Virus record (IMG/VR): IMGVR_UViG_3300001686_000008
Span: 1 to 47,174 of that record
From: a virus
Length of the DNA: 47,174 bases
Reading direction: 5' to 3' (one strand)
The notes under the pieces: model-generated
Told to the model about the DNA's origin: nothing
Database searches by the model: none
The model's input: only the letters and a program-made list of their open reading frames with translations
Part shown: one piece after another, positions 3,346-27,871 of the stretch
Position numbering within the stretch: position 1 is the first letter of the stretch
Layout: every line of letters begins with the position of its first letter
Translations under genes and position numbers: made by a program

Positions 3346-3349
3346 TATT

Positions 3350-3380
3350 GGGCCACCCCGAAATGGGTGGCCCACTTTAT
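3350..3380 (+). terminator. terminator closing the left early operon
   Basis: Perfect 9-base inverted repeat GGGCCACCC / GGGTGGCCC with a 6-base loop, followed by ACTTTATT. The T-tract is short but the stem is very stable. Confidence 0.7.
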
Positions 3381-3415: not shown

Positions 3416-3443
3416 TTGACATCTTGCCGATAGAGTGTACGAT
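3416..3443 (+). promoter_or_regulatory. promoter for the GHKL ATPase unit
   Basis: TTGACA at 3416-3421, a 16-base spacer and TACGAT at 3438-3443. Lies between the terminator at 3350 and the gene at 3513. Confidence 0.65.
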
Positions 3444-3451
3444 GGGTTTAA

Positions 3452-3489
3452 GTAATCCTGCTGTCCGGCGTTCGGGCGAGCAGGATTAC
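3452..3489 (+). promoter_or_regulatory. perfect 11-bp inverted repeat in the leader of the GHKL gene
   Basis: GTAATCCTGCT at 3452-3462 and AGCAGGATTAC at 3479-3489 are exact reverse complements around a 16-base loop that contains a CCG...CGG inner stem. It begins just downstream of the expected transcript start and ends 23 bases before the ATG. With no T-run it is unlikely to be a terminator. An RNA control element or a protein-binding palindrome fits. Confidence 0.65.
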
Positions 3490-3512
3490 AACAACTCGAT
3501 TCGGAGGCTACC

Positions 3513-5087
3513 ATGCCAGTGGCAGCGAAGCAGAAGAAGGCGGTGGCATCACCATCCGCCCCGATCTACACAGAGGTCCAGCCCAACGCGGGCCGGACGA
3601 TCCATGCCCTTCGTGAGATGGGCTATGACTCATTCAGTTCCATCATGGACCTGATTGACAATAGCCTGGACGCGGGGGCGAAGAAGGTGACGGTCAACAT
3701 CAAGGAAGTGGGTGAAGACCGGACGGTGGACATCATCGACAACGGCAAGGGCATGGATGAGAAGACCCTTGCCGAGGCCCTGAAGCTGGGCAGCCAGGTG
3801 GAGAAGTACGACCCTACGAAACGCCTGGGCAAGTTCGGTATGGGTCTCATCACCGCGTCCATCTCCCTCGCCAGGAACATCTGGGTGCTGTCCCGCGTCA
3901 AGGGGCAAGCCGCATATGAGGCGAGCTTCGACGTGGACACGATTGAGCGGGAGAATCGGTTCGTCATCACCCTCAAGCCGGCGGACTCCAAGCGGGTGCT
4001 TGAGACGGTGGATGAGTACGGCACCATCGTCCGCCTCAGTCGCATCGACCGCATCAACGACAGCAACGTGGCCAGGTTCGCCCAGAACCTTCGCGTCAAG
4101 CTCGGCCAGGTCTACCGCCACTTCCTGGCCCAGGGTGTGAACATCACCGTCAACGGTCGCAAGGTGGAACGATACGATCCGCTCATGCTCGATCATCCCG
4201 AGACTGAAACGGTGCTCAACACCACCCTCGACCTGGGTGACGGCACGAAGGCGAAGCTCGTGGCCGTGGAGCTTCCTGACCTGGGCACTGAAGGCGACGC
4301 CCAGGCCAACATCTTCCCGCACAACAGCGGGTTCTACGTGGTCCGTAATGGCCGCGAGATTATTGCCGGCGACACCTTTGGGTTCTATCGGCACCACCAC
4401 AGCTACTCCCACTTCCGAGCGGAGTTGAGCTACACGGGCGATAGCACTGCCCTGCACGAGGACATCAAGAAGTCCAGCGTCCACCCCGATGACAAGCTCC
4501 TGGACAAGCTGCGGGGCCTGACCGAGAAGCTGATTGCCAACAGTGGCCGGCGTTCGCGTGAGACCGCTGAGGCCCAGCCGATCCAGATGAAGCATTCGAC
4601 CGCAGCGGCAGCCATCAACGCCAAGATGGCGAGTCTCATCCAGGGGCCGAGCAAGGCCGTTGTCGCCGCTGCCAAGGAAGCTGCCATCAATCCACCTGCC
4701 CCTGTCGAGGAGGTCAAGCCCAAGGGCAAGCGGGGCCGGCCCAGCAAAGAGGAGGCAGCCAAGAAGGCCAAGGAAGCGGAGAAGGCAGAGGCCGAGAAGC
4801 TGGCCGCACCTCCTGCCCCTACGGTGGAGTTCATCGAAGCTGACCTGGGGAACGAAGGCCGCTTCTTCCAGGCGGAGCAGAAGGACTTGAAGACGATCAT
4901 CACCTACAACAATCGTCATCCCTTGATCCGTTTCGTGTCCGGCACCAACCAGCCCAAGGTCAACGCTATCTTGGACATGATGGCGTTCGCCCTGGCCAAG
5001 GCCGAAGGGGACAACCCCGAGGGCAAGAAGCTGGTCAACCGGGCGTGCGACTATCTGGCCGTACTTGCTGCTCCAAACGTAGGGTAG
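3513..5087 (+). CDS. GHKL-family ATPase (MORC/MutL/Hsp90-like) with AT-hook
   Basis: 524 residues. The three GHKL ATP-binding motifs are clear: an N-box (MDLIDNSLDAGA, 45-56), G1 (DIIDNGKGMDE, 73-83) and G2 (GKFGMGLITASISLA, 106-120). This is the ATP-clamp module of MutL, Hsp90, MORC and histidine kinases. No histidine-kinase phosphoacceptor or MutL endonuclease motif is visible. An S5-like second domain probably runs to about residue 300. An AT-hook core (GKRGRPSK, 405-412) starts a Lys/Ala/Glu-rich linker, followed by a distinct C-terminal domain (436-524). The order resembles MORC proteins, which clamp and compact DNA. Start ATG with CGGAGG. It has its own promoter and structured leader. 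A role in DNA compaction, defence evasion or replication is inference. Confidence 0.85.
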   Translation: MPVAAKQKKAVASPSAPIYTEVQPNAGRTIHALREMGYDSFSSIMDLIDNSLDAGAKKVTVNIKEVGEDRTVDIIDNGKGMDEKTLAEALKLGSQVEKYDPTKRLGKFGMGLITASISLARNIWVLSRVKGQAAYEASFDVDTIERENRFVITLKPADSKRVLETVDEYGTIVRLSRIDRINDSNVARFAQNLRVKLGQVYRHFLAQGVNITVNGRKVERYDPLMLDHPETETVLNTTLDLGDGTKAKLVAVELPDLGTEGDAQANIFPHNSGFYVVRNGREIIAGDTFGFYRHHHSYSHFRAELSYTGDSTALHEDIKKSSVHPDDKLLDKLRGLTEKLIANSGRRSRETAEAQPIQMKHSTAAAAINAKMASLIQGPSKAVVAAAKEAAINPPAPVEEVKPKGKRGRPSKEEAAKKAKEAEKAEAEKLAAPPAPTVEFIEADLGNEGRFFQAEQKDLKTIITYNNRHPLIRFVSGTNQPKVNAILDMMAFALAKAEGDNPEGKKLVNRACDYLAVLAAPNVG

Positions 5088-5090
5088 GTT

Positions 5091-5348
5091 ATGGAAAAGC
5101 ATGAGTGGAATCGTATAACGCGGGCATTGACTGACCGGGAGTGCGAGGCCACGGATGGCCTTCCACCCCAGACACGCGAGCAACTGGAGGCTATGCATGG
5201 GCAGGTGTGGGACAGCTTCACTCTTGCCAGGGACTACGAGGTCGAAGTCTTTGTTGACCGTTGCGTCGTCGCGGTGCGTAGATCGGATGGTACGCGGGGC
5301 ACGTTGATGTACCAGAACAACCCTCGGTTCTACTGGGGGTTCAAGTAA
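5091..5348 (+). CDS. hypothetical protein (85 aa)
   Basis: Begins 3 bases after the GHKL stop, so it is co-transcribed and probably coupled; its own ribosome site is weak (GGGTAGG). Starts MEKHEWNRITRALTDRE and contains a strand-rich second half (YEVEVFVDRCVVAVRR). I do not recognise it. Being the only partner in the GHKL unit makes it a candidate functional or structural partner. A strong terminator follows directly. Confidence 0.65.
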   Translation: MEKHEWNRITRALTDRECEATDGLPPQTREQLEAMHGQVWDSFTLARDYEVEVFVDRCVVAVRRSDGTRGTLMYQNNPRFYWGFK

Positions 5349-5351
5349 CCG

Positions 5352-5387
5352 GAGGCCGGCCTGGGAATACAGGTCGGCCTCTTTTGT
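5352..5387 (+). terminator. rho-independent terminator after the GHKL unit
   Basis: GAGGCCGGCCTG, a 6-base loop, CAGGTCGGCCTC (one G-T pair), then CTTTTGTT. A stable 12-base stem with a T-run. Confidence 0.85.
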
Positions 5388-5411
5388 TCGCAAAAGAATT
5401 TCCAGATTTAA

Positions 5412-5441
5412 TTGGACGCCATTTAATTTACGGGGTATATT
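5412..5441 (+). promoter_or_regulatory. promoter for the 5506 gene group
   Basis: TTGGAC at 5412-5417, an 18-base spacer and TATATT at 5436-5441, in an AT-rich island. The element resembles the one at 14122-14151, which also begins ATTGGACGC. Confidence 0.55.
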
Positions 5442-5505
5442 TCCATTCAACGACGCGAAGCTCCCGGCGTTAAACGGGGGGCAGGTTTGACAACGGAGGT
5501 TTCGC

Positions 5506-5754
5506 ATGTGTGGTCCCGATGATTCGCCCGAACGCACGCCGTATCAGATCGCCAAGGACAATCTTGTCTCGGCGAAGAACGACGTGAAGTATTGGACGGC
5601 CACGAACAAGACGTTCCCCGGCCAGTACACCGAGGCCCTCAAGGACGCGAAGGCCCGCTTGAAGACGGCCACGAAGGCCATCGCCAAGATTCGCTCCGAC
5701 CGTGCCAAGAAGGCGGCGAAGAAGGCCGCGAAACGTCAGCTTCAGGTCGCCTGA
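5506..5754 (+). CDS. small lysine-rich protein (82 aa)
   Basis: ATG after ACGGAGG. The N-terminus MCGPDDSPERTPYQIA is followed by a long basic helix rich in Ala and Lys (residues ~45-82, ending KKAAKRQLQVA). The product is strongly basic and may bind nucleic acid or the nucleoid. The start MCGPDDS recalls the next gene (MCFHGGPDNSD), hinting at a shared N-terminal tag or an old duplication. Family unknown. Confidence 0.6.
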   Translation: MCGPDDSPERTPYQIAKDNLVSAKNDVKYWTATNKTFPGQYTEALKDAKARLKTATKAIAKIRSDRAKKAAKKAAKRQLQVA

Positions 5755-5864: not shown

Positions 5865-6152
5865 ATGTGCTTTCATGGTGGTCCCGACAATTCGGATCAG
5901 GGTCAGAAGTCGTTTCGCAAGGTGACGGAGGGTGAGACCCCGCTCCCCGGCAGCACCGTCTTCCTGGGTGACTTCGGCAGCCGCCCCGGCATCGTGCAGA
6001 CTGTCGCTCAGAATCGCCTGTTGATCGTCAAGCTCAATGCCCCCGTCATCCTGTCCGGCAACGTCATCAACATCGTCGGCATCAACGCCACTACCGCGTT
6101 CGTGTCCGCCCAGAATGCCGTCGCCGCCGAAGTCGCCGCGTCCGCCTTCTGA
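5865..6152 (+). CDS. hypothetical protein (95 aa)
   Basis: Two ATGs follow GGAGG. The one at 5859 is only 1 base from the site, so I take 5865 (7 bases away), giving MCFHGGPDNSDQGQKSF. The C-terminal two thirds look beta-rich and hydrophobic (SRPGIVQTVAQNRLLIVKL, VINIVGINATTAFV), like a small barrel. No known family. The 110 bases between 5755 and 5864 show no gene. Confidence 0.6.
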   Translation: MCFHGGPDNSDQGQKSFRKVTEGETPLPGSTVFLGDFGSRPGIVQTVAQNRLLIVKLNAPVILSGNVINIVGINATTAFVSAQNAVAAEVAASAF

Positions 6153-6481: not shown

Positions 6482-6510
6482 TTGACTACAAGTTTAACGT
6501 ACACGATATT
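6482..6510 (+). promoter_or_regulatory. promoter for the oxidoreductase gene
   Basis: TTGACT at 6482-6487, a 17-base spacer and GATATT at 6505-6510. The expected transcript start near 6517 decides the gene start: only the ATG at 6530 would have a leader with a GAGGA site. Confidence 0.6.
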
Positions 6511-6529
6511 TATGGCAGAGGACAACAAT

Positions 6530-7561
6530 ATGATTTATGACGTTGCGGTTATTGGGGCAGGACCAGGCGGGCTGCAAGCTGCCATTGCAGCAGCCAGCGA
6601 AGGCATGAACGTCCTGGTCCTTGAGAAGGGCACCGTGGGCGGGCAGATCGGACAGACGCCGCTCCTGGAGAACAGCGTGTTCTCGGGCGGGGGGATTACC
6701 GGCCCGGAGTTCGCCGGCCTGATGAAGCGGCAGGCGGAGGCGATGGGTGCGACGATCATCGCCGACACCATCACCGAGATTAAGAGGACGCCGGCCAGCT
6801 ACGCCGTAGTGGGGCAGAAGGCCGGCTACTTCGCCCATGCTGTTATCCTGGCGATGGGCAATCGGTGGAGCGAGCTTGACATCCCTGGTGTGAGAGAATC
6901 AGTGGGCAAGCACATTCACTACGGTCCAGTGAAGACCCTCGCCACCAACGCCGCCGGCACCCAGGTCGCCGTCTATGGCGGCGGTCCCTCCGCCGGCCAG
7001 GCCATCATCGCCTTGGCCAAGTTCGCCACTGCCAGCAAAGTCCAGGTGCTCATGCGGTCCACCCTGAAGATGCCGCAGTACCTCGTCGATACGATCCTCC
7101 GTCTGGTCGAGGAGGACAAGGTGGAGCTTCACGACCACGTTACCATCCGTCGCGTGACGCAACGGGAGGACGGCCAGATCGACCTGCTAATATCAGGCGA
7201 TGCTGGAGGTCCACAGAAAATCACTATCAGCCAATGCTTCATGTGCAACGGCCTGACACCCGCGACCGAATGGCTGCCCAAGGCAATCCAGAAGGACAAG
7301 GACGGGCGGGTGCTCGTCGGCCTGGACGTGGACCGCGACGGCGACCGATTCAAGCACGAGCCGGGCAGTCTTGAGACCAGCTTGCCGGCGGTGTATGCCA
7401 TCGGCGACTGTCGCAGCGGATCGACCGCCCGCGTTGGTGTGGCCATCGGCGACGGCAGCATGGCCATCACCGAGCTTTGGCAATACTTTGCTAAGCATCC
7501 TGTATGCCGCATGTGTAAGACGTTCTTCCCAGCCCAACCTGCCCCCGCTCGCAGGGGTTAA
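6530..7561 (+). CDS. FAD/NAD(P)-binding oxidoreductase, thioredoxin-reductase-like
   Basis: 343 residues. The FAD-binding Rossmann motif is at the N-terminus (DVAVIGAGPGG), the second dinucleotide fold is in the middle (VAVYGGGPSAG), and the C-terminal FAD motif is AVYAIGDCRSG. This is the order of the thioredoxin reductase/ferredoxin-NADP reductase group. The redox CxxC that thioredoxin reductases carry in the NADPH domain is absent (the position reads HYGPVK). Instead a CRMC pair lies at the extreme C-terminus. It may therefore be a ferredoxin/flavodoxin-NADP reductase type enzyme, or use the tail cysteines. I start at 6530 because the promoter overlaps upstream ATG/TTG codons. It could supply electrons for nucleotide reduction, though no reductase is present here. 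Confidence 0.8.
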   Translation: MIYDVAVIGAGPGGLQAAIAAASEGMNVLVLEKGTVGGQIGQTPLLENSVFSGGGITGPEFAGLMKRQAEAMGATIIADTITEIKRTPASYAVVGQKAGYFAHAVILAMGNRWSELDIPGVRESVGKHIHYGPVKTLATNAAGTQVAVYGGGPSAGQAIIALAKFATASKVQVLMRSTLKMPQYLVDTILRLVEEDKVELHDHVTIRRVTQREDGQIDLLISGDAGGPQKITISQCFMCNGLTPATEWLPKAIQKDKDGRVLVGLDVDRDGDRFKHEPGSLETSLPAVYAIGDCRSGSTARVGVAIGDGSMAITELWQYFAKHPVCRMCKTFFPAQPAPARRG

Positions 7562-7639: not shown

Positions 7640-9637
7640 GTGCCACAAACAATAGTCATCGACTTTGAGACCTACTACGACAAGGACTACCACCTGCGGC
7701 AAAAGGGGATGACCTACCTCCAGTTCATCCTGGACAAACGGTTTCACGTTTTTGGTATGGCGGTGAACTACGACTCGGGCGTGTCCGAATGGATCAGTGG
7801 CGACGACGTTCAAGCCTGGTTGGAGACTCATTCTGAGGACATCCTTGTCGCCCACCAGGGTTTTTTCGACTTCGCGGTCCTGTTCTGGCACTACAAGTTC
7901 CGGCCAGCCTACATGGTCGATACCCTCCTGATGGCCAACCATGTTCTGGGTTCTGCCCGTGACAAGGGTGGCACCCGCAATGACGTGGCCAGCTTGGCAA
8001 CCCGGCTGGGCCTGAAGGCCAAGGGCAGGATCGAGTTCATGAAGGGCGTGCGGCATCCTGATGAGCAGCAGATGCAGGCCCTCATCTCCTATGCCATCAA
8101 CGACGCGGAGATTGAACGGCAGATTCTCAACCGCCTGCTCCCCCAGTTCAGCAACCCCGACTTTGAGTTCTGGCTGATGGATCACACCATCCGCATCTAC
8201 CTGGAGCGGCCCCTTCAGATCGACCCCGAGAAGCTGAAGAACGTCCGCGAGATTGTCACGAAGCGGCAGGCTGAGCTACTGTCCCTCTCGGGCACCACCC
8301 GCGACGTGCTGGCCAGCGACAAGAAGTTCCCACCCTACCTGACCGAAGTGCTCAAGAAGCACAAGATCAAGCTGCCCATGAAGAAGGCAGCCAAGCCCCG
8401 CAAGGATGGCACCCAGCCCATGATCCCTGCCCTCTCCAAGGGCGACGCCAAATTCATCGAGCTATCCGAGTCTGACATCCCCGAGGTTCGCAACCTCATC
8501 CAGGCGAGGCTGGCCGTGCGGTCGGCTGCCACTGTTATCGCCCGGCTCGCCACCATGCAGAAATACATAGACTGGGGGGTCGGTATTCCCGTCCACCTGG
8601 TCTACTACGGTGGGCACACAGGCCGCTTCAGCGGCGGCGGGGGGTTCAACTTCCAGAACCTCACCAGCCCGGACCGTGCCCAGGATGACATCGACAAGCT
8701 GATTGCCCAGTTGGTGCGGCAGGCCATCCAGGCACCGTCCGGCAAGGTCTTCGTGCCCGTCGATGCGGCTCAGATCGAGGCCCGCGTGCTGGCATGGCTG
8801 GCCGGCGAAGAAGAACTGGTCGAGGCGTTCCGCAGCGGCACCGACATCTACAGCAAGTTCATCTCAGACGTGCTGGGCGAGGACATCCACAAGCCCACCG
8901 AGGAAGACAAGAAGGACGCCGCCAAAGCCCACCACCTGATTCTCATGCGAGGGGCGGGCAAGATCGCCGTCCTGGGCCTGGGCTTCCAGATGGGTGCGGA
9001 CAAGTTCTTTAAGCAGATGGAGTCCAAGGACAAGAACCTGGCCAAGATGATTAAGGCCGGCAAGATCACCCTGGAGTTCGCCGCTGATGTCGTGAAGGGC
9101 TACCGCGACACCTACCAGAACATCGCCGCCTTCTGGGGCAAGATCGACAAGGCATTCCACCGTGCTCGCCAGGGCATCGAGACGAAGCTGGGGCCGCTAA
9201 CCTTCAAGCGGATCGGCATGAACGCAGTCTCCATCACCTTGCCCTCTGGCCGTGCCCTCTACTACCGCAACATCCGCCAGGAGGCGTACAAGGGCAAGCG
9301 GAAGTTCACCAACGTCAAAGGCAAATGGCAGGACGCCAAAGATCAAATGGAGTGGAAGCATGGAGCGGGACAGAAGATTTACGGGGGCCTCCTCACTGAG
9401 AATGTGGTTCAGGCTATTGCTCGTGACATCCTTGTTGAGCAGGGCATCTTTGCCGCCGAACAGGCCGGCTATCCCGTCAACATCCACATACATGATGAGG
9501 TCGTCCCTCTGGCTGACGAGAAGGACGGCGAGAAGGCTTTGGCCTTCCTAGTGAAGTCGTTGTCCACCGCTCCAAGCTGGGGCGAGGGCATGGCGTTGAG
9601 TGCCGAAGGCAAGGTCAGCAGGAGCTTGGGCAAATGA
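7640..9637 (+). CDS. family A DNA polymerase with 3'-5' exonuclease
   Basis: 665 residues. The N-terminal DnaQ-like exonuclease shows Exo I (IDFETY; D8, E10), Exo II (AHQGFFDFAV; D77) and Exo III (YAINDAEI; Y151, D155). Polymerase motif A is VDAAQIEARVLAWL (catalytic D375), motif B lies around GKIAVLGLGFQMG, and motif C is IHIHDEVV (H618, D619, E620). There is no 5' nuclease domain. It replicates the phage genome. The GTG start has no ribosome site, and the -10 box ends 5 bases upstream, so the mRNA is predicted leaderless. The next gene overlaps its stop (ATGA). Confidence 0.95.
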   Translation: MPQTIVIDFETYYDKDYHLRQKGMTYLQFILDKRFHVFGMAVNYDSGVSEWISGDDVQAWLETHSEDILVAHQGFFDFAVLFWHYKFRPAYMVDTLLMANHVLGSARDKGGTRNDVASLATRLGLKAKGRIEFMKGVRHPDEQQMQALISYAINDAEIERQILNRLLPQFSNPDFEFWLMDHTIRIYLERPLQIDPEKLKNVREIVTKRQAELLSLSGTTRDVLASDKKFPPYLTEVLKKHKIKLPMKKAAKPRKDGTQPMIPALSKGDAKFIELSESDIPEVRNLIQARLAVRSAATVIARLATMQKYIDWGVGIPVHLVYYGGHTGRFSGGGGFNFQNLTSPDRAQDDIDKLIAQLVRQAIQAPSGKVFVPVDAAQIEARVLAWLAGEEELVEAFRSGTDIYSKFISDVLGEDIHKPTEEDKKDAAKAHHLILMRGAGKIAVLGLGFQMGADKFFKQMESKDKNLAKMIKAGKITLEFAADVVKGYRDTYQNIAAFWGKIDKAFHRARQGIETKLGPLTFKRIGMNAVSITLPSGRALYYRNIRQEAYKGKRKFTNVKGKWQDAKDQMEWKHGAGQKIYGGLLTENVVQAIARDILVEQGIFAAEQAGYPVNIHIHDEVVPLADEKDGEKALAFLVKSLSTAPSWGEGMALSAEGKVSRSLGK

Positions 9638-18008: not shown

Positions 18009-18198
18009 GAGCGGACGATTGAAGTGCATGGACTACGGCACGGGGGGTGTACGCCATGACTGGCGAATCACCCCGGAGGCCCTGGAGGCTATTGAGCCAG
18101 CCCCCATCATCCCGCAGCCCGCTGCTGCCCCTCGCCGGGGGCGTCGTCGGGGACGATCCGCATCTGCGGCTGTCCAGACGTACCTGCTTGATGCTTAG
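17935..18198 (+). CDS. helix-turn-helix protein, excisionase-like
   Basis: 87 residues. Residues 4-50 (LKEAAAQAKLSAKTLRNHCK, then a turn with SGRLKCMDYG and DWRITPEALEAIE) match the winged-helix MerR/Xis type used by phage excisionases. The tail is Pro/Ala- and Arg-rich (PRRGRRRGRS). ATG 17935 has GAGG six bases upstream. It is convergent with the integrase, and their 3' ends overlap by about 92 bases. That position supports an Xis role; a lysis-lysogeny regulator is the alternative. Confidence 0.7.
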   Translation: MALMTLKEAAAQAKLSAKTLRNHCKSGRLKCMDYGTGGVRHDWRITPEALEAIEPAPIIPQPAAAPRRGRRRGRSASAAVQTYLLDA

Positions 18199-19390
18199 GC
18201 TGCGGCCACAGGCGGAGGCGTACCACCCTGGCCACCTTGCGAATCCGCTTCCATCCAATTTCCTCATGGTCGTACCCGTCTTCGACCTTGTTCCCCGAGT
18301 GACCCATGCACAGGTTGAGGGCGTCCTTGTCCCTCGCCTTCTTGCCCAGCGTCTTGAACGTGTGGCGGAATCGGTACGCGGTCACACCCTCAAGCTCCAG
18401 CCTCTTAGCAATCCGGCTGACCGTCAGGGAGATGGCGTTGTGGACAACAATCTTCAACTTGCCGTTGACGTTCCGCTTCTCCTCCCAGTAGTACGGCTGC
18501 TGCTTTCGTGTGACGAATACAAGGGCCTCTCCGCCTTCTCTGCTAATAGCTGCCTGGGTGTGCTTCAGCTTCTTCACGTCCTCCAGGGCGGCGATAGTCT
18601 TCTTCCACAGATAGCCTACGCGGGCGTTGCCGGTCTTGTGCCGGGGGTAGTCGAGCTTCCGCCCGTCCAGGTGCCGCCACTTCATCCGGCCCAGGTCCGC
18701 CGGCCCCATGCCCGTGTTGACGGCCAGGAGAATGATGGCCTTGAAGTTCGGCTGAGCGTCCGAGAGCATCTTGTCAACCTCCTCGCCCGTAACAATTCTC
18801 TTGGAGTGGTCCTTCAACCCTGCCCTCATCTTTTCCTTCTTGAGAGCTTGCTTCGTCGTGACTGGGGCCTTGAAGGCAGAGCCGAAGTTGGGAAGGGGGG
18901 CATGGCCGTTGCCGGCAGCCCAGCGGAACATCGCCTTGATGTACGCCTGGACTCGCTTGCGGGCGAGGGCTTTGAGCTTCCGGCTTTCCAGCAGGTGTTG
19001 GACGTAGCCGCCGAAGTGCTCGGGCTTCAGGTTGGCCACGGCGGTCTGCGGCTTGATCCATTCGATGAAGACGCCGAGTTCGGTGTTGTACTCACCCAGG
19101 GTGGCCAAGCTCAGGGTGCCAGCGATGACATCGAGTTGGCGTTGATCGAGAAACCTTTTGACAATCTCGCCCACGGTGGGGAGGCCCTTCGATTCAAGCT
19201 GCCTCAGATGGTCGGTGCCGGCGAAGATGCCAGCGACGCGAGAGTCATAGTCCTTGACGGCCCGCTCGCCCTTGGGGTCATCCTTCCAGCTTCCGAAGTA
19301 GTAGGGCTTCTGGTTGATCTTCTTCCACCACTGCCCGTTCAGGTGGGGGGACAGGGGGAAGTCTTCGTGTGGCTTGTTCGGTCGCGTCAT
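18107..19390 (-). CDS. int: tyrosine-type integrase
   Basis: 427 residues. Core-binding helices occupy ~60-190. The catalytic C-terminus has YRFRHTFKTLG (R342, H343), CMGHS (H364) and the nucleophile in GYDHEE (Y373). The first catalytic Arg, normally in TG(L/M)R, is replaced: the segment reads NTGMGPADLGRMKW (residue 229 is Gly). A nearby PRHKTG block carries the Lys. This variant style is one I associate with planctomycete integrases. The frame is open to 19450, but ATG 19390 has GGAGGAAAG and a natural start (MTRPNKPHEDF). It would integrate the phage; the promoter is at 19482-19510. Confidence 0.9.
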   Translation of the reverse strand: MTRPNKPHEDFPLSPHLNGQWWKKINQKPYYFGSWKDDPKGERAVKDYDSRVAGIFAGTDHLRQLESKGLPTVGEIVKRFLDQRQLDVIAGTLSLATLGEYNTELGVFIEWIKPQTAVANLKPEHFGGYVQHLLESRKLKALARKRVQAYIKAMFRWAAGNGHAPLPNFGSAFKAPVTTKQALKKEKMRAGLKDHSKRIVTGEEVDKMLSDAQPNFKAIILLAVNTGMGPADLGRMKWRHLDGRKLDYPRHKTGNARVGYLWKKTIAALEDVKKLKHTQAAISREGGEALVFVTRKQQPYYWEEKRNVNGKLKIVVHNAISLTVSRIAKRLELEGVTAYRFRHTFKTLGKKARDKDALNLCMGHSGNKVEDGYDHEEIGWKRIRKVARVVRLRLWPQPKHQAGTSGQPQMRIVPDDAPGEGQQRAAG

Positions 19391-19400
19391 CTTTCCTCCA

Positions 19401-19598
19401 GGTGTCGTAACAGGTGTCGTATCGACCAGCCCGTCACTCGACTTTTGCAAGTTTCTTAGGAAACCTGCGAATCACGAAGGAAAGATACTATATTTTCAGT
19501 CCTCTGTCAAGTGCGTTTCCAGCTTAATAATCAAAGGTGAGGGGAATCTAAGGGCCGCTTAGAGAAGCCAAGAATGGGGGTGTCAGGTGTCCGACACC
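19401..19598. repeat. GGTGTC repeats around the integrase promoter, candidate arm or operator sites
   Basis: GGTGTCGTA occurs at 19401-19409 and 19413-19421, 12 bases apart. GGTGTC recurs at 19579-19584 and 19586-19591; the last forms the palindrome GGTGTCCGACACC (19586-19598). All flank the integrase promoter. They could be integrase arm-type sites, excisionase sites or repressor operators. I cannot define the attP core. Confidence 0.45.
19482..19510 (-). promoter_or_regulatory. promoter for the integrase
   Basis: Reading the minus strand: TTGACA (19510-19505), a 17-base spacer, TATCTT (19487-19482). The leader to the ATG at 19390 is about 85 bases and contains the two GGTGTCGTA repeats. 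Confidence 0.75.
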
Positions 19599-19636: not shown

Positions 19637-19918
19637 ATGACCAACGACAACGAGACGAAGATCGAAGTGGCGGGGCCTGAGCCTGTACCCGAACCTGTTT
19701 GCGTCGTCATCATCCATCGCGGTAAGCCGCCGCTCCTCCCCAAGACCTACGCCCAGGCTAAGCTCTGGGCCAAGGGAAGGAAGCGGACGGTGATTGGCCG
19801 TGGCTACGTCCTGTTCCGCGAGAAGGATGGTTACTGTCTGATGGCTGAGCAGAGGGGCAGGGTGAAGGTCATCGACGTGTGGCTTCCCTCTGATGACAAT
19901 GGGCAGGGCCGGAATTGA
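19637..19918 (+). CDS. small hypothetical protein (93 aa) beside the attachment region
   Basis: Starts MTNDNETKIEVAG, followed by a Pro/Glu-rich stretch, then a basic folded part (YAQAKLWAKGRKRTVIGRGY, GYCLMAEQRGRVKVID). No ribosome site; the putative -10 box ends 5 bases before the ATG, suggesting leaderless expression. Its last 19 bases overlap the 3' end of tRNA-Phe on the other strand. Between divergent promoters near int, it could be a lysogeny-expressed gene. Family unknown. Confidence 0.55.
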   Translation: MTNDNETKIEVAGPEPVPEPVCVVIIHRGKPPLLPKTYAQAKLWAKGRKRTVIGRGYVLFREKDGYCLMAEQRGRVKVIDVWLPSDDNGQGRN

Positions 19919-19972
19919 ACCGGCGACACAGCGATTTTCAGCCGCTTGCTCTACCAACTGAGCTACCTGCCC
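19900..19972 (-). tRNA. tRNA-Phe (GAA)
   Basis: The minus strand folds into a standard cloverleaf. The acceptor stem is GGGCAGG / CCTGCCC with discriminator A. The D-arm is GCTC...GAGC, the anticodon stem AGCGG / TCGCT holds the loop CTGAAAA (anticodon GAA), and the T-arm is GCCGG...CCGGC with TTCAATT. CCA is not encoded. It decodes UUU/UUC. It lies 0.5 kb from the integrase, so it could be a translational aid, part of attP, or both. Confidence 0.93.
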
Positions 19973-21025: not shown

Positions 21026-24000
21026 CTATTCCTCATCGCCTTGCGGCACTGCCCCGGCCTTGACTCTGGCCCAGTCAGTTTGCAGGCGTTTCATGTACGC
21101 AACCCGGTCTTCCCGTTTGAGGGATTTACTGGATCGCAGCTTGGCGAACATCTGCGGGCCAAGCCTCCGCTTCTCCCCGTCGTCCATGACCTCCCATACC
21201 TTCATTGCGTCGTCGAACTCCATAGACTTGACCGACCGCTCCAGCATCCCGGAGAACTTCTGCCGGCTGCGGATGTTCTGGATGTCCGCTTCAGTGAAGT
21301 CCCCGGACTGCATCGCCTCCCGGATGTTCTCCCGAGCGTTCGGCTCTTTGGCCTTCAAGGCGTTGGCCAGGTCGCGGACCTTCTTGGAATGGTCAGCCTC
21401 CTCCTGGGTTCGCGTCCCGTGGGGCTGCCGCTCCTGCATAATCTCCTGGGCCTTCAATTCAGCTTCGCTGTGTGTGATGTCGCTGCGAGCCTGGACGATG
21501 CCGATGATGGGGAGTAAGGATCGAGCACCCTGCCCTTCATCATGGAGCTTCTTAACTTCGCGGACGCCGAAGGGAGTGAACTGCTCGCCCACGAACTTCG
21601 CTTCGTCCAGCAGTTGCTTCATGAACGGATCGTCTTCGTTGCGAATCTTCGTGCCGTAGTAGTCCTTGTTCGCCAGCATCTCCATGATCGTGTTGAGCAT
21701 GGGGTGGACCTTGTTGCTGAGGGTCTTCGCTGGGTCTTTCCCGTATGCGAGCACGTCCTTCATGTAGGAGGGAAGGGCAAGTCGGATGTCGTGGCCTTCC
21801 TTGTCCTTCTCCCCGGTCTTGGGGAAGAACCAGTCCTTGGCTTCTTTGGGGACGCCGTTGCCCAGGGCGTAGTGGACCATGCCACCTACGAGGCCAGCCA
21901 TGATTGGCATTGCTGCGGCGTAGGCCATGCGGTGCGTGAACTCGGTGTTGCCGAAGCTGCGGTCAATGGCTGCTTGCTTAACCATCGTGCCGAGGTCGGC
22001 CACCCCGCCGGCCAGTTCTCGAAGCGTACCCAAGTTCCATCCAACGGAACGGGTGGAGGCCATAGCGAGGTCTTTGGCTGCTTTGTTCCAGAACAGGTTG
22101 TCATAGACCAACTCTCCCATTCGGTTGTCCACACTGTCCCAGGCTTTAGCCATCGCCGCCCGCACTTCCTCACGCCCGGCCCCTGCCGGCATCTTGGAAA
22201 GCTCATAGCGGGCCATGTCATGGAAGACGCCCATCTTCATGCGGGGCACGATTATCTCCATGATGGGTTTCGCGGACTGCTCAATGCCGGCGAAGGGAAG
22301 GCGGAGGGCTGCACCGATATAGTTGCCCTTCTTGAACGCTTCCATCATCTTGTCGGTCATGCCGGTGTGGTAGAAGTCATCCATCTTGATGCGGCCACCA
22401 GCCGCTTTCATCGCGTCCACGATCTGAGCAATCTCAGGCGTCGTGCTGCCGGGCTTCACCCATTCCCGAAGGACGAGGTTGCCTTTGTGGATGTTGCCGA
22501 TGGCCGGACCGATCATGGTCGCCGCGTTGACGACAGACTTCCCTGCCTCTTTGAATTGGCCGCTCCCAAGCTGTTTGAAGGACAGAGCCAGCTTCGACGT
22601 TGCCGAGTCGAGTGTAGTGTTCAGCAGATGGAAGCCGGACATACCAAGCTGCACCTGGTTCATGACGTTGCCGGCACCCAGGTACGCCCGGAATAGGCCA
22701 CCGAAATTCTTGTCCCCTCGGATGCCTGGAGACAGGTAGTTGTTGATGACGTTGGCGACAGCTTCAGGAGCGACGATGTAGCCTTTGATCTGGATCGCAC
22801 CGCGACGGCTCGCCTTGGCGTACACCGTGGCGATGTTGTCATTGATCTTCGCGTAGCCTTCCGGCAGCCCGCCCCTGGCACTGACCCTGGTGAGCACGCC
22901 CTTCATGCCCATCTCTTGGAACGCCTGGTGGATCGTGATGTACTTGTCCATCTCCCGCACGCGGAGGAGCACGGCTTCGACTGGGTTCTCGGTGACGGGT
23001 TCTAATCCCTTCTTGATGCCATCCGAGAACAGCTTCAATGTCCGCTGTTTAAGGAAGCCCTTCTTCCCCTCCAGAGGAGCTTTGGCAATCGCTTCCCCAT
23101 AGACCGACTTGGCTTTCGCCGGGTCTTTCCACAGGTGGGGGAAATAGTCTTCAATGAAGTTGGCCAGCTTGCCAGTGCCGAGGGCCTGCACCTGGGCCAG
23201 CCGGTCATTCAGGATGGCACGGAGGGCGTCTGCTGCGGGCTGAAGGGCAGGATCGGTCTGCCTCAATCCCCGCTCCATCTTGTCGATGAAGTCACGGGTG
23301 ATGGGCACGTCCAGCTTCTCGAACGCCTTCATGGAATCGCGGAAGGCTTCGTTGAGCCGGTCGCTACGCTGGGCCAATTCTGCCCCGCGTTCGCGGATGG
23401 TGTTGGCGGCATAGCGGGCATCGTCACTGCGGACCTGGGGACCGAGGATCGACTTCACGCCGGTCCACGCAGCCTTCAAGCTCTTGCCGGCTTCCTCCAG
23501 CCGGGGCTTCACGTCCTCGTCAATGAACTTCTCGCCTGGATAGAACAGAGTCCGTTGGGCTTTGGTTATTTCGGAGGGCTGATGCTTTGCGAATTTTTCA
23601 GCCCTTTGAGCGATTCGGTTAAGAACTTCCTTACGACCTTCAGCGACGTAGCCGCTGGGAGGTTCTTCGCCGCTTCCCGCCTCTTTCGCTGCCCCTTCTG
23701 CACGGCTGATAGATTCTTCAGATAGTCCAAGTCCTCGGAGGGCTGCTCTGACATCGGGGTCTCCCAGCATGTCGTGGAAGGCAGGGGCCTCGGCCACGTC
23801 TTCATGCGTCAAATTCTTCAGGGCCTCATGGCCCGTCGTGTCCTTGTTGATTCGTTCCGATAAGGTCTTGAAGAAGCTCCAGATGGTCTCTTGCACCTGG
23901 GCCGGCTCAAGCCCCATCGACTTCGCCACACGGCGAACCTTGGCAGTATACCCCAGGTATCCGCCATTGTCAGAAAACACCTTCTGGTCAACGTCGCCGA

Positions 24001-27000
24001 ACTTAGCCATCCATGCATCGTTCGTCACAGCCTGGAGGTTGCCCCGGACGTTCTCAGTGAAGTTGCTGACCTTGGGGCCGGAAAGCTGTTCGCTCCGCAG
24101 TGCCCGGATGATGTTGGGCTTGCGGGTCTCCATCACACCATCTAGGAGGGCTTCAATCTTGGCAGGATCGTTTGGCCGGCCAGCATCGTCCCAGGCTTTC
24201 CACACCTTGATGGTTTCACGGAAATTCTTCTCGACCGTTTGACGCGGGGAATCCGCCGCGAGCAAGGCGGCGAACTGGCGACTGTCGGGGCCGAACAAAT
24301 CAATGAGTGCCGCCGCAGCCTTCTCGTACCAGCCCTTCTTCGCAATGCCCGCCTGGGCCGCTGCCTCGAACTCCGCGTCGGCGGGGAGAGTGCGGAAGAC
24401 ATCCAGAGCACGCTTCGCTTCAGAATCGGTCAGTGACTCCCGCTCCTCGGGAGTCAAATGCTTCATCAATTCCTTCTCACCCTTTGGGGCGAAGGACGCA
24501 CCGTTTGCCTGCTCAACTTTGTGGAACTCATCGGGCAGGAGGGTGGCCTTCTGCTCGGCATAGCGGGTGTCGGTTGGATTGGCCTGGTTGTGTTCACCCT
24601 GCGGACCGAAGTTGACCCAGGAGTTCTGCCCCCTGGTCTCGGTCGTCATAGCACCACGGGCCTGCTCGGAATACATTACCGAGTGAGACCGCCATGCATT
24701 CTCCTCTCCGCGAGGGCCAAATCCAACTCCCTCTTTAGTGTGGCCAAAGTAGTCGTGGACCGCCCGGAAGACATCATTGTACGTGTAAGGCGTGCCAGGT
24801 GCCTTTTCCGCAAGCGGGTGGTCGGCTGGTAGATCGCCGCCCTGATAGAAGTATAGATGTTTATGTTCCGCAACATCGTTTCTCATCTCCTCCGAGTTTT
24901 TGTAGGGCTGCCCCTCCTGATTCCACGCCTCGAACTTCACACCCTTCGATTCGAGGTACTTCCACTGGTCGAGCGTTTCCTTTTTGAAGGCTTCGTAGCT
25001 GGCTTTGACTTTCGGGTCGTTGGGGGAATGGGTGGATAGATCATATGCTGAAGCAATCCGCTTGGCCCGCTCGACGTTGACTTCAGCGTAGGAAGAATCT
25101 GGGTGGTAGGGTACTCCGTTCGCCTTTGTGTATTCCTCAGCTTCCTTACGAATGCGGTCATTGCCCTTCGGAGCAAAGAGGGTGCCTTGGGTTTCGACTT
25201 CACGGGGGCGACGGGTGGCCCGTACTTTCGCAGGTGGGCCAGCAGCCTCAGTTTTCGGGACTGCCGCTTCTGAGCCTCCGCTTGTTGCCTCCGAATTTCC
25301 TCCCAGTATTCGTACCCCTCTATCTCCATTTTTGCTAGGAACTTCCGAAACATTTGCTTCCTCCGGTTTGACTGTTTTATCGCGGAGAAGGGCAAGAGCC
25401 TTGTCCACGATCTGATGTTTGCCAGTGAGCTTATCCCAGATGCCCTGGCCGGTTTCGACGATCTTCTCCCAGACACCAGCCTTCTGCCCCATGAGGGCAC
25501 GGCGGATGACGGAACGGGTGGCCGCATCCTGCAAAGCCATCGCCCCGATTTCCCGCTCGGACACTTCCGGCGTCAGGTACTTGCTCGTGTCGATGCCCTT
25601 CATCTTGGCGAGCTTCGACTTGTAGGTGTCCATGTACTTCGTCCGCTGCTCCTGGGGAATCGCCTCCAGGAAGGCTTTGGCGGCAGCCGGATCGCTGTCC
25701 TGGACAGTGTGCATCCACTCATGGCCCAGAACCGACACCCACCCCTTTACGGGGTAACGAGCGTCGATGAACGCGACTCCTGGATGATCTGGGTGGATGA
25801 AGCCAGCGGCACCACCGGAGTCGTTAATGTGGACGACTTTGATGCCCAGAACCTTCTCGACTGCGTTTGAAGCAGCCCGGACGTACTTGCTTGGCTTAAC
25901 AAGTCTCGCTTCGGGTCGAATGTTCGGAAGGTCGGATTCGGCTTTAGCCACTTCGGGAACGGCCCGTACCGATTCAGAAGGTACTGGCTTTGATACCGTT
26001 CCTTCAGGTAAGACGACCTTGCCAGCCCCGGATTGCGGTACTTCTGGAGTACCTCCCGGTAAACCTGTCTGTCTTCCTTCAGGTACTCGAACCACGTTCG
26101 CCGCATCTCCCGGTCCACCAGCAAGTGCCACAGGAGCTTCAGCCTTGACTTGAGCATTTGCTACCTCCGCAGGTTGCATTGACCGGACTGGCACTGGCCC
26201 GGATTGTCCTTGTTCAGCAGGCGTGCCAACTCCTGCAACAGCCGCCGCTGGCGGCGTAATTGACGGGACTTTGACCGTATCGCCAGCACTTCCCTTCGCC
26301 AGCTTAGAAACGCGGTCACGAAGTTCAGAGCCATAGCTTTCAATTTGGTCATCTGTCAGCCCTCGGGATTTCAGTTCGTTGATGGCTTCCTTGCCGACCT
26401 TCCCCAGCCTGGGCTGAGTCGCGGCATAGTGGAGCTTGTCGTCACGATTCTCGAAGTCGAGCACAAGGCCCTTGGACTCTGCCCCTTCCTGGACGCGGTA
26501 TTTGGGAACCGCCTTGTCAACCAGACTCGTCTTCGGCTCGGGAGCGGGGGCAGTGAGGAGAGGCTTCATTACCTCGGCAGTGGGGGCCGGGACTTCGTTG
26601 GGTTTGGCTTGGGGAGCAGACACTTCCAGGGCTTTTGTATTTTCGGCGACTGGAGCACGGCCTTCCGCGAGACCACGCACGCCACCCGACCCCAGCCCGC
26701 CCACGGCGTTGACTGCCGCCTGGTGGAGGATCGCTTCAAGGGAGGGGGATTCGCCTGTCAGCAGATACTTGGACGCCTCGCTGGTCAATCCCTGGCCGGC
26801 ACCGACCGCACCTTGGGCGAAGGCATCTTTGACCGCCATCGTCATCGCCGCCCGGATCGCCGGCTGCTTCGTAGCTGCCGAACCGATGGCACCGAACTTC
26901 ATCAAGTAGGTGTTGACCACGCCGTCAACGGCACCGCCGGCCAGAGCCACAGAGTTTGCGTCTGCTTCGTTCAAGCCCTGAGCACGGGCAGCGTTATAGG

Positions 27001-27871
27001 TTCTCTCGTAACCAGCTTGGAAGCCTTGTGCCCCCATCTGGCCGAAGGCCAATGCCTTATCCACTCCGCCGGCTTGGAACGCTCGCCCCATCATTATCAA
27101 TGGGGGAATCATCTCTGCACCGGATTCGACCAACTTCTGGGCCGTCCCAGTGTTCAGACCGAAGTGGCTGTTCTGAGCGACAGTGGATTGGGGGAAGGAC
27201 TTTTCGACGTTGCCCGTAATCTTGTTGAGAGTGTTGGCGGTAGCCTGGCGTGCGATGGCTGCGGAACTGGTGCCAGCGTTTGGATCAGCACCCTCGCCAT
27301 TCTGGTAGCCAGCTTCAACGCCTTGCTCGACCGTCCCCAGGATGAGATTTGCCCCACCCTTGACCGGCTCGGTGACGGTCTTCGTTGCTCCGCGAATGGG
27401 AGCATTGACCAAAGTTGCCTGGAGTCTTCCCACCTGTTCGGGAGTCTTTCCAGCTTGCCCGGCCTGCTGACCTGCGAGGGCGACGTTAAGAGCGTTGGTG
27501 CTGTATTCCTGCCGCCACTTATCTTCGGTGGCCTGTCGTTGCTCGGGTGGGATGCTGCCCTGGAGATATGCGATGGCGTTGGGGAGGGTCTTTTCGGATG
27601 CCTCAGTCACCAGACGGGTTTCGCCTGGGTTGGCCTGCCGATAAGCCTCGTCCGCACTAGAGACAATCTTCTGCCCCTGGGACTGCAAAGCGGCATGGCC
27701 AAGCTGTTCCCACTTCTGGCGAACATAGCCTTCCGCTGCCTGACTGATGACTGGGTTGGATGAATCGAAAGCCTGAGACCCTGTTGAAGCCAGTGGATCG
27801 CCAAAAGGATTTGACGTGGCTTGGGGCTGAGACGGGGCAGCATTCGCTGGTGCGTCACCGAAGGGATTCAT
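21026..27871 (-). CDS. giant polyvalent internal virion protein (2,281 aa)
   Basis: Begins MNPFGDAPANAAPSQPQ with a second NPFGD soon after (a disordered start). Long helical stretches follow, then a zinc-peptidase-like segment (VLGHEWMHTVQ, HEXXH at 717-721). Next comes a block with HDYFGHTKEG and WVNFGPQGEHN, then an all-helical region (GWYEKAAAALIDLFGPDS). The C-terminal module has membrane-active character (GLVGGMVHYALG). This mosaic is typical of large polyvalent or ejection proteins of podoviruses, stored in the capsid and injected to process host targets or form a channel. No lysozyme-type motif recognised. ATG 27871. The start of the 20763 gene lies just past its stop. Confidence 0.85.
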   Translation of the reverse strand: MNPFGDAPANAAPSQPQATSNPFGDPLASTGSQAFDSSNPVISQAAEGYVRQKWEQLGHAALQSQGQKIVSSADEAYRQANPGETRLVTEASEKTLPNAIAYLQGSIPPEQRQATEDKWRQEYSTNALNVALAGQQAGQAGKTPEQVGRLQATLVNAPIRGATKTVTEPVKGGANLILGTVEQGVEAGYQNGEGADPNAGTSSAAIARQATANTLNKITGNVEKSFPQSTVAQNSHFGLNTGTAQKLVESGAEMIPPLIMMGRAFQAGGVDKALAFGQMGAQGFQAGYERTYNAARAQGLNEADANSVALAGGAVDGVVNTYLMKFGAIGSAATKQPAIRAAMTMAVKDAFAQGAVGAGQGLTSEASKYLLTGESPSLEAILHQAAVNAVGGLGSGGVRGLAEGRAPVAENTKALEVSAPQAKPNEVPAPTAEVMKPLLTAPAPEPKTSLVDKAVPKYRVQEGAESKGLVLDFENRDDKLHYAATQPRLGKVGKEAINELKSRGLTDDQIESYGSELRDRVSKLAKGSAGDTVKVPSITPPAAAVAGVGTPAEQGQSGPVPVRSMQPAEVANAQVKAEAPVALAGGPGDAANVVRVPEGRQTGLPGGTPEVPQSGAGKVVLPEGTVSKPVPSESVRAVPEVAKAESDLPNIRPEARLVKPSKYVRAASNAVEKVLGIKVVHINDSGGAAGFIHPDHPGVAFIDARYPVKGWVSVLGHEWMHTVQDSDPAAAKAFLEAIPQEQRTKYMDTYKSKLAKMKGIDTSKYLTPEVSEREIGAMALQDAATRSVIRRALMGQKAGVWEKIVETGQGIWDKLTGKHQIVDKALALLRDKTVKPEEANVSEVPSKNGDRGVRILGGNSEATSGGSEAAVPKTEAAGPPAKVRATRRPREVETQGTLFAPKGNDRIRKEAEEYTKANGVPYHPDSSYAEVNVERAKRIASAYDLSTHSPNDPKVKASYEAFKKETLDQWKYLESKGVKFEAWNQEGQPYKNSEEMRNDVAEHKHLYFYQGGDLPADHPLAEKAPGTPYTYNDVFRAVHDYFGHTKEGVGFGPRGEENAWRSHSVMYSEQARGAMTTETRGQNSWVNFGPQGEHNQANPTDTRYAEQKATLLPDEFHKVEQANGASFAPKGEKELMKHLTPEERESLTDSEAKRALDVFRTLPADAEFEAAAQAGIAKKGWYEKAAAALIDLFGPDSRQFAALLAADSPRQTVEKNFRETIKVWKAWDDAGRPNDPAKIEALLDGVMETRKPNIIRALRSEQLSGPKVSNFTENVRGNLQAVTNDAWMAKFGDVDQKVFSDNGGYLGYTAKVRRVAKSMGLEPAQVQETIWSFFKTLSERINKDTTGHEALKNLTHEDVAEAPAFHDMLGDPDVRAALRGLGLSEESISRAEGAAKEAGSGEEPPSGYVAEGRKEVLNRIAQRAEKFAKHQPSEITKAQRTLFYPGEKFIDEDVKPRLEEAGKSLKAAWTGVKSILGPQVRSDDARYAANTIRERGAELAQRSDRLNEAFRDSMKAFEKLDVPITRDFIDKMERGLRQTDPALQPAADALRAILNDRLAQVQALGTGKLANFIEDYFPHLWKDPAKAKSVYGEAIAKAPLEGKKGFLKQRTLKLFSDGIKKGLEPVTENPVEAVLLRVREMDKYITIHQAFQEMGMKGVLTRVSARGGLPEGYAKINDNIATVYAKASRRGAIQIKGYIVAPEAVANVINNYLSPGIRGDKNFGGLFRAYLGAGNVMNQVQLGMSGFHLLNTTLDSATSKLALSFKQLGSGQFKEAGKSVVNAATMIGPAIGNIHKGNLVLREWVKPGSTTPEIAQIVDAMKAAGGRIKMDDFYHTGMTDKMMEAFKKGNYIGAALRLPFAGIEQSAKPIMEIIVPRMKMGVFHDMARYELSKMPAGAGREEVRAAMAKAWDSVDNRMGELVYDNLFWNKAAKDLAMASTRSVGWNLGTLRELAGGVADLGTMVKQAAIDRSFGNTEFTHRMAYAAAMPIMAGLVGGMVHYALGNGVPKEAKDWFFPKTGEKDKEGHDIRLALPSYMKDVLAYGKDPAKTLSNKVHPMLNTIMEMLANKDYYGTKIRNEDDPFMKQLLDEAKFVGEQFTPFGVREVKKLHDEGQGARSLLPIIGIVQARSDITHSEAELKAQEIMQERQPHGTRTQEEADHSKKVRDLANALKAKEPNARENIREAMQSGDFTEADIQNIRSRQKFSGMLERSVKSMEFDDAMKVWEVMDDGEKRRLGPQMFAKLRSSKSLKREDRVAYMKRLQTDWARVKAGAVPQGDEE

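Follow-up and report, generated by a model that had tools for sequence, protein, structure and literature searches.

One question raised by this locus is what a MORC-type GHKL ATPase does in a phage when it is encoded alone. Prokaryotic MORC proteins have been viewed as components of restriction systems and their eukaryotic counterparts as chromatin clamps; in animals and plants, MORC proteins clamp and silence DNA. The window analysed here is an entire virus record of 47,174 bases, in which the initial annotation had described a self-contained unit: a 524-residue GHKL/MORC-like ATPase with an AT-hook linker and a C-terminal domain, paired with an 85-residue product and provided with its own promoter, a structured leader and a strong terminator.

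Boundaries of the transcription unit

Both open reading frames were found as described (Table 1), and the ATPase unit is real and well formed. The perfect 11-bp inverted repeat announced for the leader is present, the leader folds with -32.4 kcal/mol (z=-4.5), and the repeat would form a hairpin close to the 5' end of the message. The terminator is strong (-28.9 kcal/mol, z=-5.4), and a second hairpin, additional to those initially listed, delimits the unit on its upstream side. The claim of an own promoter was only partly sustained: a sigma-70-like site was located, but two promoter-like sites were observed in the region against 0.7±0.9 in shuffled sequences, so that the match is weak. Similarly, the unit is self-contained as regards transcription, but the ATPase gene heads a block of replication and recombination genes.

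Two candidates were rejected in this region. The leader repeat is not a shared operator: in an exact search of the window no copy of the repeat unit was found beyond its own two arms, the second exact copy being the other arm, and it is not conserved in relatives (the leader of the closest one, phage L013, also has a hairpin, of other sequence). A 635-aa antisense ORF (3630-5537) was discarded as a gene, its codon pattern being shadow-like.

The 85-aa ORF starts 3 bases past the ATPase stop and its GC periodicity is coding-like (0.60/0.44/0.71). No relatives of its product were found in viral contigs in two scans, BLAST and phmmer returned nothing, and its structural model (pLDDT 54.8) is unusable. 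Phage L013 contains at the equivalent place a 73-aa ORF that overlaps the ATPase stop (ATGA) and shows a similar pattern (W, VRR/DG/GTL, RFY), with a similarity near chance, its score being equalled in 191 of 5000 shuffles; other relatives have unrelated ORFs at this position. The two genes can thus not be upheld as a functional pair, the counterpart being doubtful at best and confined to the closest phage, and the 85-aa product is at most a lineage-specific accessory.

Table 1. Features of the ATPase locus in the window
Feature	Position	Strand	Remarks
Terminator-like hairpin	3349..3374	+	shuts upstream unit; 10-bp perfect stem, z=-4.4
Sigma-70-like promoter TTGACA-16-TACGAT	3416..3443	+	10/12 consensus; chance possible
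Leader hairpin, 11-bp perfect inverted repeat	3452..3489	+	arms 3452-3462/3479-3489
Stand-alone MORC-type GHKL ATPase, 524 aa	3513..5087	+	
GHKL ATPase + S5/transducer module	3573..4490	+	about residues 21-326
MORC-family S5 motif GFYVVRNGREI, residues 273-283	4329..4361	+	E282
AT-hook-like KGKRGRPSK, residues 404-412	4722..4748	+	disordered linker; lineage-specific
C-terminal domain, residues 437-524	4821..5084	+	beta hairpin + 3 helices, N466xxHP motif
85-aa ORF	5091..5348	+	probably translationally coupled
Intrinsic terminator (stem-loop)	5351..5382	+	T-rich tail to about 5390
Family A DNA polymerase (PolA)	7640..9637	+	downstream neighbour kept with ATPase

Identification of the ATPase

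The 524-aa protein matched Pfam HATPase_c_3 (E=3.2e-24) and its catalytic positions are intact, in agreement with the GHKL assignment. The nearest curated family was MzaB, which belongs to MORC-type restriction systems (PADLOC PDLC02204, E=4e-26; NCBIfam NF041932, E=2e-30), although the protein scores 105.6 bits against the NF041932 (MzaB equivalog) cut-off of 850. A sequence search of the PDB gave weak matches to MutL and MORC2, with MutL ranking first (E=7e-6, residues 41-158), and the MutL family TIGR00585 was matched with 36.6 bits across 47 residues, the threshold being 180. An AlphaFold2 model was built on a 47-sequence alignment from which plasmid sequences were left out (pLDDT 88.5). 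Foldseek ranks 1-7 in the PDB were structures of MORC3, MORC4 and MORC2 (E about 1e-16), followed by TRAP1/Hsp90, and MutL was not present among the 50 PDB fold matches listed. The fold ranking and the sub-threshold scores rule out that the protein is a MutL, and fold and scores likewise exclude a histidine kinase; with MORC structures at the top and MzaB as nearest curated family, its description as MORC-like was supported. As judged from the predicted fold, its identification as a MORC-type GHKL ATPase with intact catalytic positions is well supported.

The recognised motifs are motif I (D46..N50), DNGxGM (76-81), LGKFGMGL (105-112), GT (170-171) and the S5 lysine K320. D46/D49, N50, D76, G78, G80, G106, G109, G111, G170 and T171 are invariant or near-invariant in the 47-sequence alignment, the exceptions being one E at D46 and two deviations at G170, and K320 is kept in 47/47 sequences within an S5-type secondary structure. 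The catalytic-base position is generally Glu in MORC proteins and Asp (D46) in the phage ATPase; it is Asp in the restriction homologues too, the single Glu mentioned above being the only one in 47.

The MORC S5 motif was defined by Iyer et al. as GhXhhpXXRhl (PMC2292703). The sequence in the window matches this consensus at 10 of 11 positions, position 10 being a non-hydrophobic E. In the alignment this residue (282) is E, D or Q in 18/21 members of the clade described below versus L in 26/26 restriction homologues.

In the AlphaFold2 model the GHKL and S5 module is followed by long helices (residues 327-392) and, at the end of the protein, by the C-terminal domain that had been claimed, which is common to restriction-system MORC homologues, NxxHP motif included. 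Regarding the AT-hook, the core sequence is present, but it is missing from relatives and was rejected as a family feature; its surroundings were modelled at pLDDT <50.

A stand-alone clade, mainly viral

An alignment-based scan of IMG/VR yielded 69 loci, and a scan of GTDB genomes yielded three MAG contigs, labelled Verrucomicrobia in two cases and Chloracidobacterium in the third. L001 and L002, obtained in the first single-sequence viral search, were unrelated GHKL proteins and were dropped. Restriction partners were scored at each locus using those of annotated plasmid systems. In a tree of 68 proteins, 26 partnerless proteins including that of the window fell on one branch (support 100/99), sister to the branch of HNH/SF2/EcoRII-N restriction systems. 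The stand-alone label requires two changes on this tree, compared with 21 after shuffling; the extra change corresponds to L029, which was rejected as partnerless, being restriction-type by tree and motif and lying on a contig that ends just past the gene.

Relatives of dcm, vsr, Z1, AIPR, HNH, SF2 and EcoRII-N were not found in the fetched loci of the clade members, and whole-record searches of 17 stand-alone virus records detected neither a C5-methylase nor Z1, whereas the same searches were positive in restriction-type controls. In the window, Z1/SF2 helicase, nuclease, AIPR and C5-methylase are absent near the ATPase, and C5-methylase and Z1 are absent record-wide. When 396 and 388 genomes from two phyla were sampled in addition, 17 high-scoring bacterial loci were obtained: two were the clade members used as sampling centres (motif REI, no partners), and 14 of the 15 restriction-type loci had partners. 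In a restriction system on a Sphingomonas plasmid (L009, 7977-9589) the MORC-type ATPase is split between two overlapping frames, possibly through a frameshift.

The clade spans virus records from 39 kb to 548 kb, many of which are fragments, plus rare stand-alone chromosomal copies. The existence of a stand-alone, mainly viral clade sharing ancestry with the restriction-system MORC ATPase subunit is well supported, and the clade may have originated from such a subunit. Two of its large records contain unusual gene arrays. In the 548-kb record (L025, 2658-6209) eight consecutive small genes share a near-identical N-terminus, MKIRxGFxSNSSxxSF, in one case after a longer predicted start, and differ in their bodies; in a 123-kb virus record (L020, 11518-17363) several genes begin with MRxIRTxGxK and encode proteins that then differ.

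When the window protein and four other clade members were used in tblastn against 50,697 deposited phage records, no clade match was obtained; the search returned solely MutL and restriction-type fragments of human faecal origin, the latter bearing Z1 plus the beginning of a PD-(D/E)XK-like gene. PHROGs contains no dedicated family for the clade, the matches there being partial and limited to the N-terminal domain, and a megablast of 24 kb against phages matched nothing. Such a clade was not described in the full text of open-licence papers; Iyer et al. in 2008 (PMC2292703) referred to stand-alone paraMORC3 genes without mentioning those of the clade. Within the scope of these searches, the stand-alone, mainly viral MORC branch is previously unrecognised.

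Genomic context

Downstream of the ATPase unit lie genes for a Pyr_redox_2 flavoprotein, PolA, a PD-(D/E)XK exonuclease, an Erf annealing protein, a DnaB-like helicase, an RNA ligase and a Holliday-junction resolvase. In phage L013, whose ATPase is 53% identical to that of the window over the alignment, the order ATPase, flavoprotein, PolA, exonuclease, Erf, DnaB is kept. PolA lies on the same strand and at most 4 kb from the ATPase in 9/10 distinct PolA-bearing records; this proximity has a p of about 2e-8 if records are independent and about 0.002 on four lineages, with a 4-kb cut-off picked post hoc, a crude null and phages that are partly related. Where a phage has replication genes of the T4 type together with a short PolA-like protein, the ATPase is located between genes of the gp32 SSB and RecA/UvsX type (L044, L060) or has gp32 downstream (L056). 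Shielding of phage DNA, silencing of host DNA and exclusion of other phages, as initially suggested, would be candidate roles of the ATPase; the gene context favours one in replication or recombination.

Other neighbours recur as well. An integrase adjoins the ATPase in L015, L016 and L018, and adenine methylases (N6/N4 or adenine) lie beside or near it in distant members (L025, 6895-7719; L037, 1401-1952; L064, 2254-2736; L044, 7021-7932). Such contexts would fit lysogeny or anti-restriction roles too, and the clustering of early genes also yields gene adjacency in phages, which counts against a specific replication function.

Several further observations were made in these regions. The flavoprotein (window 6482-7561, also in L013, between the ATPase unit and PolA) is a FAD/NAD-dependent pyridine nucleotide-disulphide oxidoreductase whose family is labelled ribonucleotide reductase in PHROGs, and it is perhaps a supplier of reductant. 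The small neighbouring ORFs at 5506-5754 and 5865-6152 have similar starts (MCGPDDSPE and MCFHGGPDNSD) and are possibly paralogues. On the minus strand, a 2281-aa ORF (21026-27871), whose matches, to unknown PHROGs, are only partial, is a candidate large structural or injected protein. Also on this strand, a tyrosine integrase (18107-19450; Phage_integrase, E=6e-7), with no relatives in deposited phages or plasmids, lies about 450 bases from a tRNA-Phe gene (19900-19972), so that the phage is probably temperate, with a tRNA as its attachment site; in L015, a tRNA-like stretch noticed by eye next to the integrase was not called by ARAGORN.

Proposed function and alternatives

MORC2 clamps DNA and compacts it with ATP (PMC12216690), and C. 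elegans MORC-1 entraps DNA, according to work cited in the same paper. Judged by its fold and conserved positions, the phage protein is expected to bind ATP and to close a gate. Monomers would dimerise by way of their C-terminal domains, and the N-terminal gate would shut around DNA once ATP is bound; the closed clamp might bridge, compact or protect phage DNA undergoing replication or recombination; alternatively, it might load and retain the adjacent polymerase and recombination proteins. The 85-aa product is predicted to be an accessory that is confined to this lineage and dispensable. The gene context suggests that it is replicating or recombining phage DNA on which the gate would close, and dimerisation and clamping are likewise predicted; the deviation of the MORC motif from consensus at one position counts against a clamp. 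We regard this ATP-gated clamp on phage DNA as our leading reading, one that comes close to probable without reaching it. More tentatively, a MORC-type ATPase may have become, in a mainly viral lineage, a stand-alone part of replication and recombination, acting as a clamp or compactor of phage DNA, which would make it the first MORC branch outside restriction systems and eukaryotic chromatin.

An anti-restriction decoy, in which the ATPase mimics a host MORC-type subunit of the Mza-like or HNH/SF2 type and thereby shields phage DNA, could explain the sister position to the SF2/HNH/EcoRII-N restriction branch, the full-length similarity that includes the C-terminal domain, the mainly viral distribution and the missing effectors. 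Nevertheless, the catalytic core is conserved across a deep clade, which a pure decoy would not need, and the gene occurs in very different phages (records of 39 kb to 548 kb), in rare chromosomal copies and recurrently by replication genes. We consider a decoy unlikely, and there is similarly little to expect of the route by which it would operate, namely non-productive heterodimers or competition for the host helicase and nuclease.

T4 rIIA guards infection against exclusion systems, and the phage ATPase might be a comparable stand-alone protector against abortive infection or exclusion. The rIIA proteins of phages are GHKL ATPases with an unclear mechanism; they have been discussed together with conflict systems (PMC7824862), and they were frequent among the viral fold matches. 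However, Foldseek covers only about 350-400 columns of rIIA proteins of 620-1050 aa (TM by query about 0.4), no rIIA-annotated PHROG matched, MORC structures match far better, and protein length and C-terminal domain differ, all of which leaves this protector role improbable.

Since eukaryotic MORCs silence transposons, a clamp expressed in the lysogen could also compact and silence incoming or resident phage DNA, leading to superinfection exclusion or prophage silencing. The isolated transcription unit with its promoter-like site and terminators agrees with this, as do the integrases of the window and of several relatives, three of them adjoining the ATPase, but that of the window is 13 kb away, the promoter match is weak, and integrase was not found in L013, L019, L020, L025 and others, several of which are fragments; we give this explanation little credence. 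Finally, a subunit left behind when a restriction system was lost, or a protein working in trans with a host helicase and nuclease, as raised by Iyer et al. in 2008 for stand-alone paraMORC3 genes (PMC2292703), would account for the kinship with restriction-system MORCs in the tree, yet it is very improbable, because the clade is diverse and old, has a motif change peculiar to it and retains the catalytic positions, unlike recent leftovers, and because partners are missing from whole virus records.

A deep partnerless branch, mainly viral and recurrently placed by replication genes, suggests that MORC ATPases can work alone on DNA in prokaryotic systems, and that uncultured phages have a DNA-handling or counter-defence function so far unrecognised. 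Being small and lacking CW and long coiled-coil domains, the protein would suit as a minimal model for the clamp mechanism.

Comparison with known systems

The T4 rIIA family resembles the phage ATPase in being phage-encoded, stand-alone GHKL ATPases, but rIIA is longer, its C-terminal part is unrelated and the structural match is confined to the N-terminal module. MutL shares the GHKL and S5 module with a weak sequence match (E=7e-6), and its C-terminal endonuclease domain is not reported for the phage protein. Eukaryotic MORC2, MORC3 and MORC4 are the best structural matches at 11-16% identity, although the phage ATPase lacks the CW zinc finger and the MORC2-type coiled coils. MzaB, the ATPase of the MZA anti-phage system, has the same GHKL and S5 architecture; the phage ATPase differs in the absence of the Z1, PD-(D/E)XK and AIPR genes and in carrying E, not L, at motif position 282. 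The systems of the dcm-vsr-GHKL-HNH-SF2-EcoRII-N type, exemplified by Fuscovulum and Agrobacterium plasmids, L007 and L012, have a linked methylase, Vsr, HNH, SF2 helicase and EcoRII-N, none of which accompanies the phage ATPase. Their GHKL subunit nevertheless forms the sister branch, and in a profile comparison the restriction-type, virus-borne member L021 matched the phage ATPase with a probability of 100% (E=4e-43).
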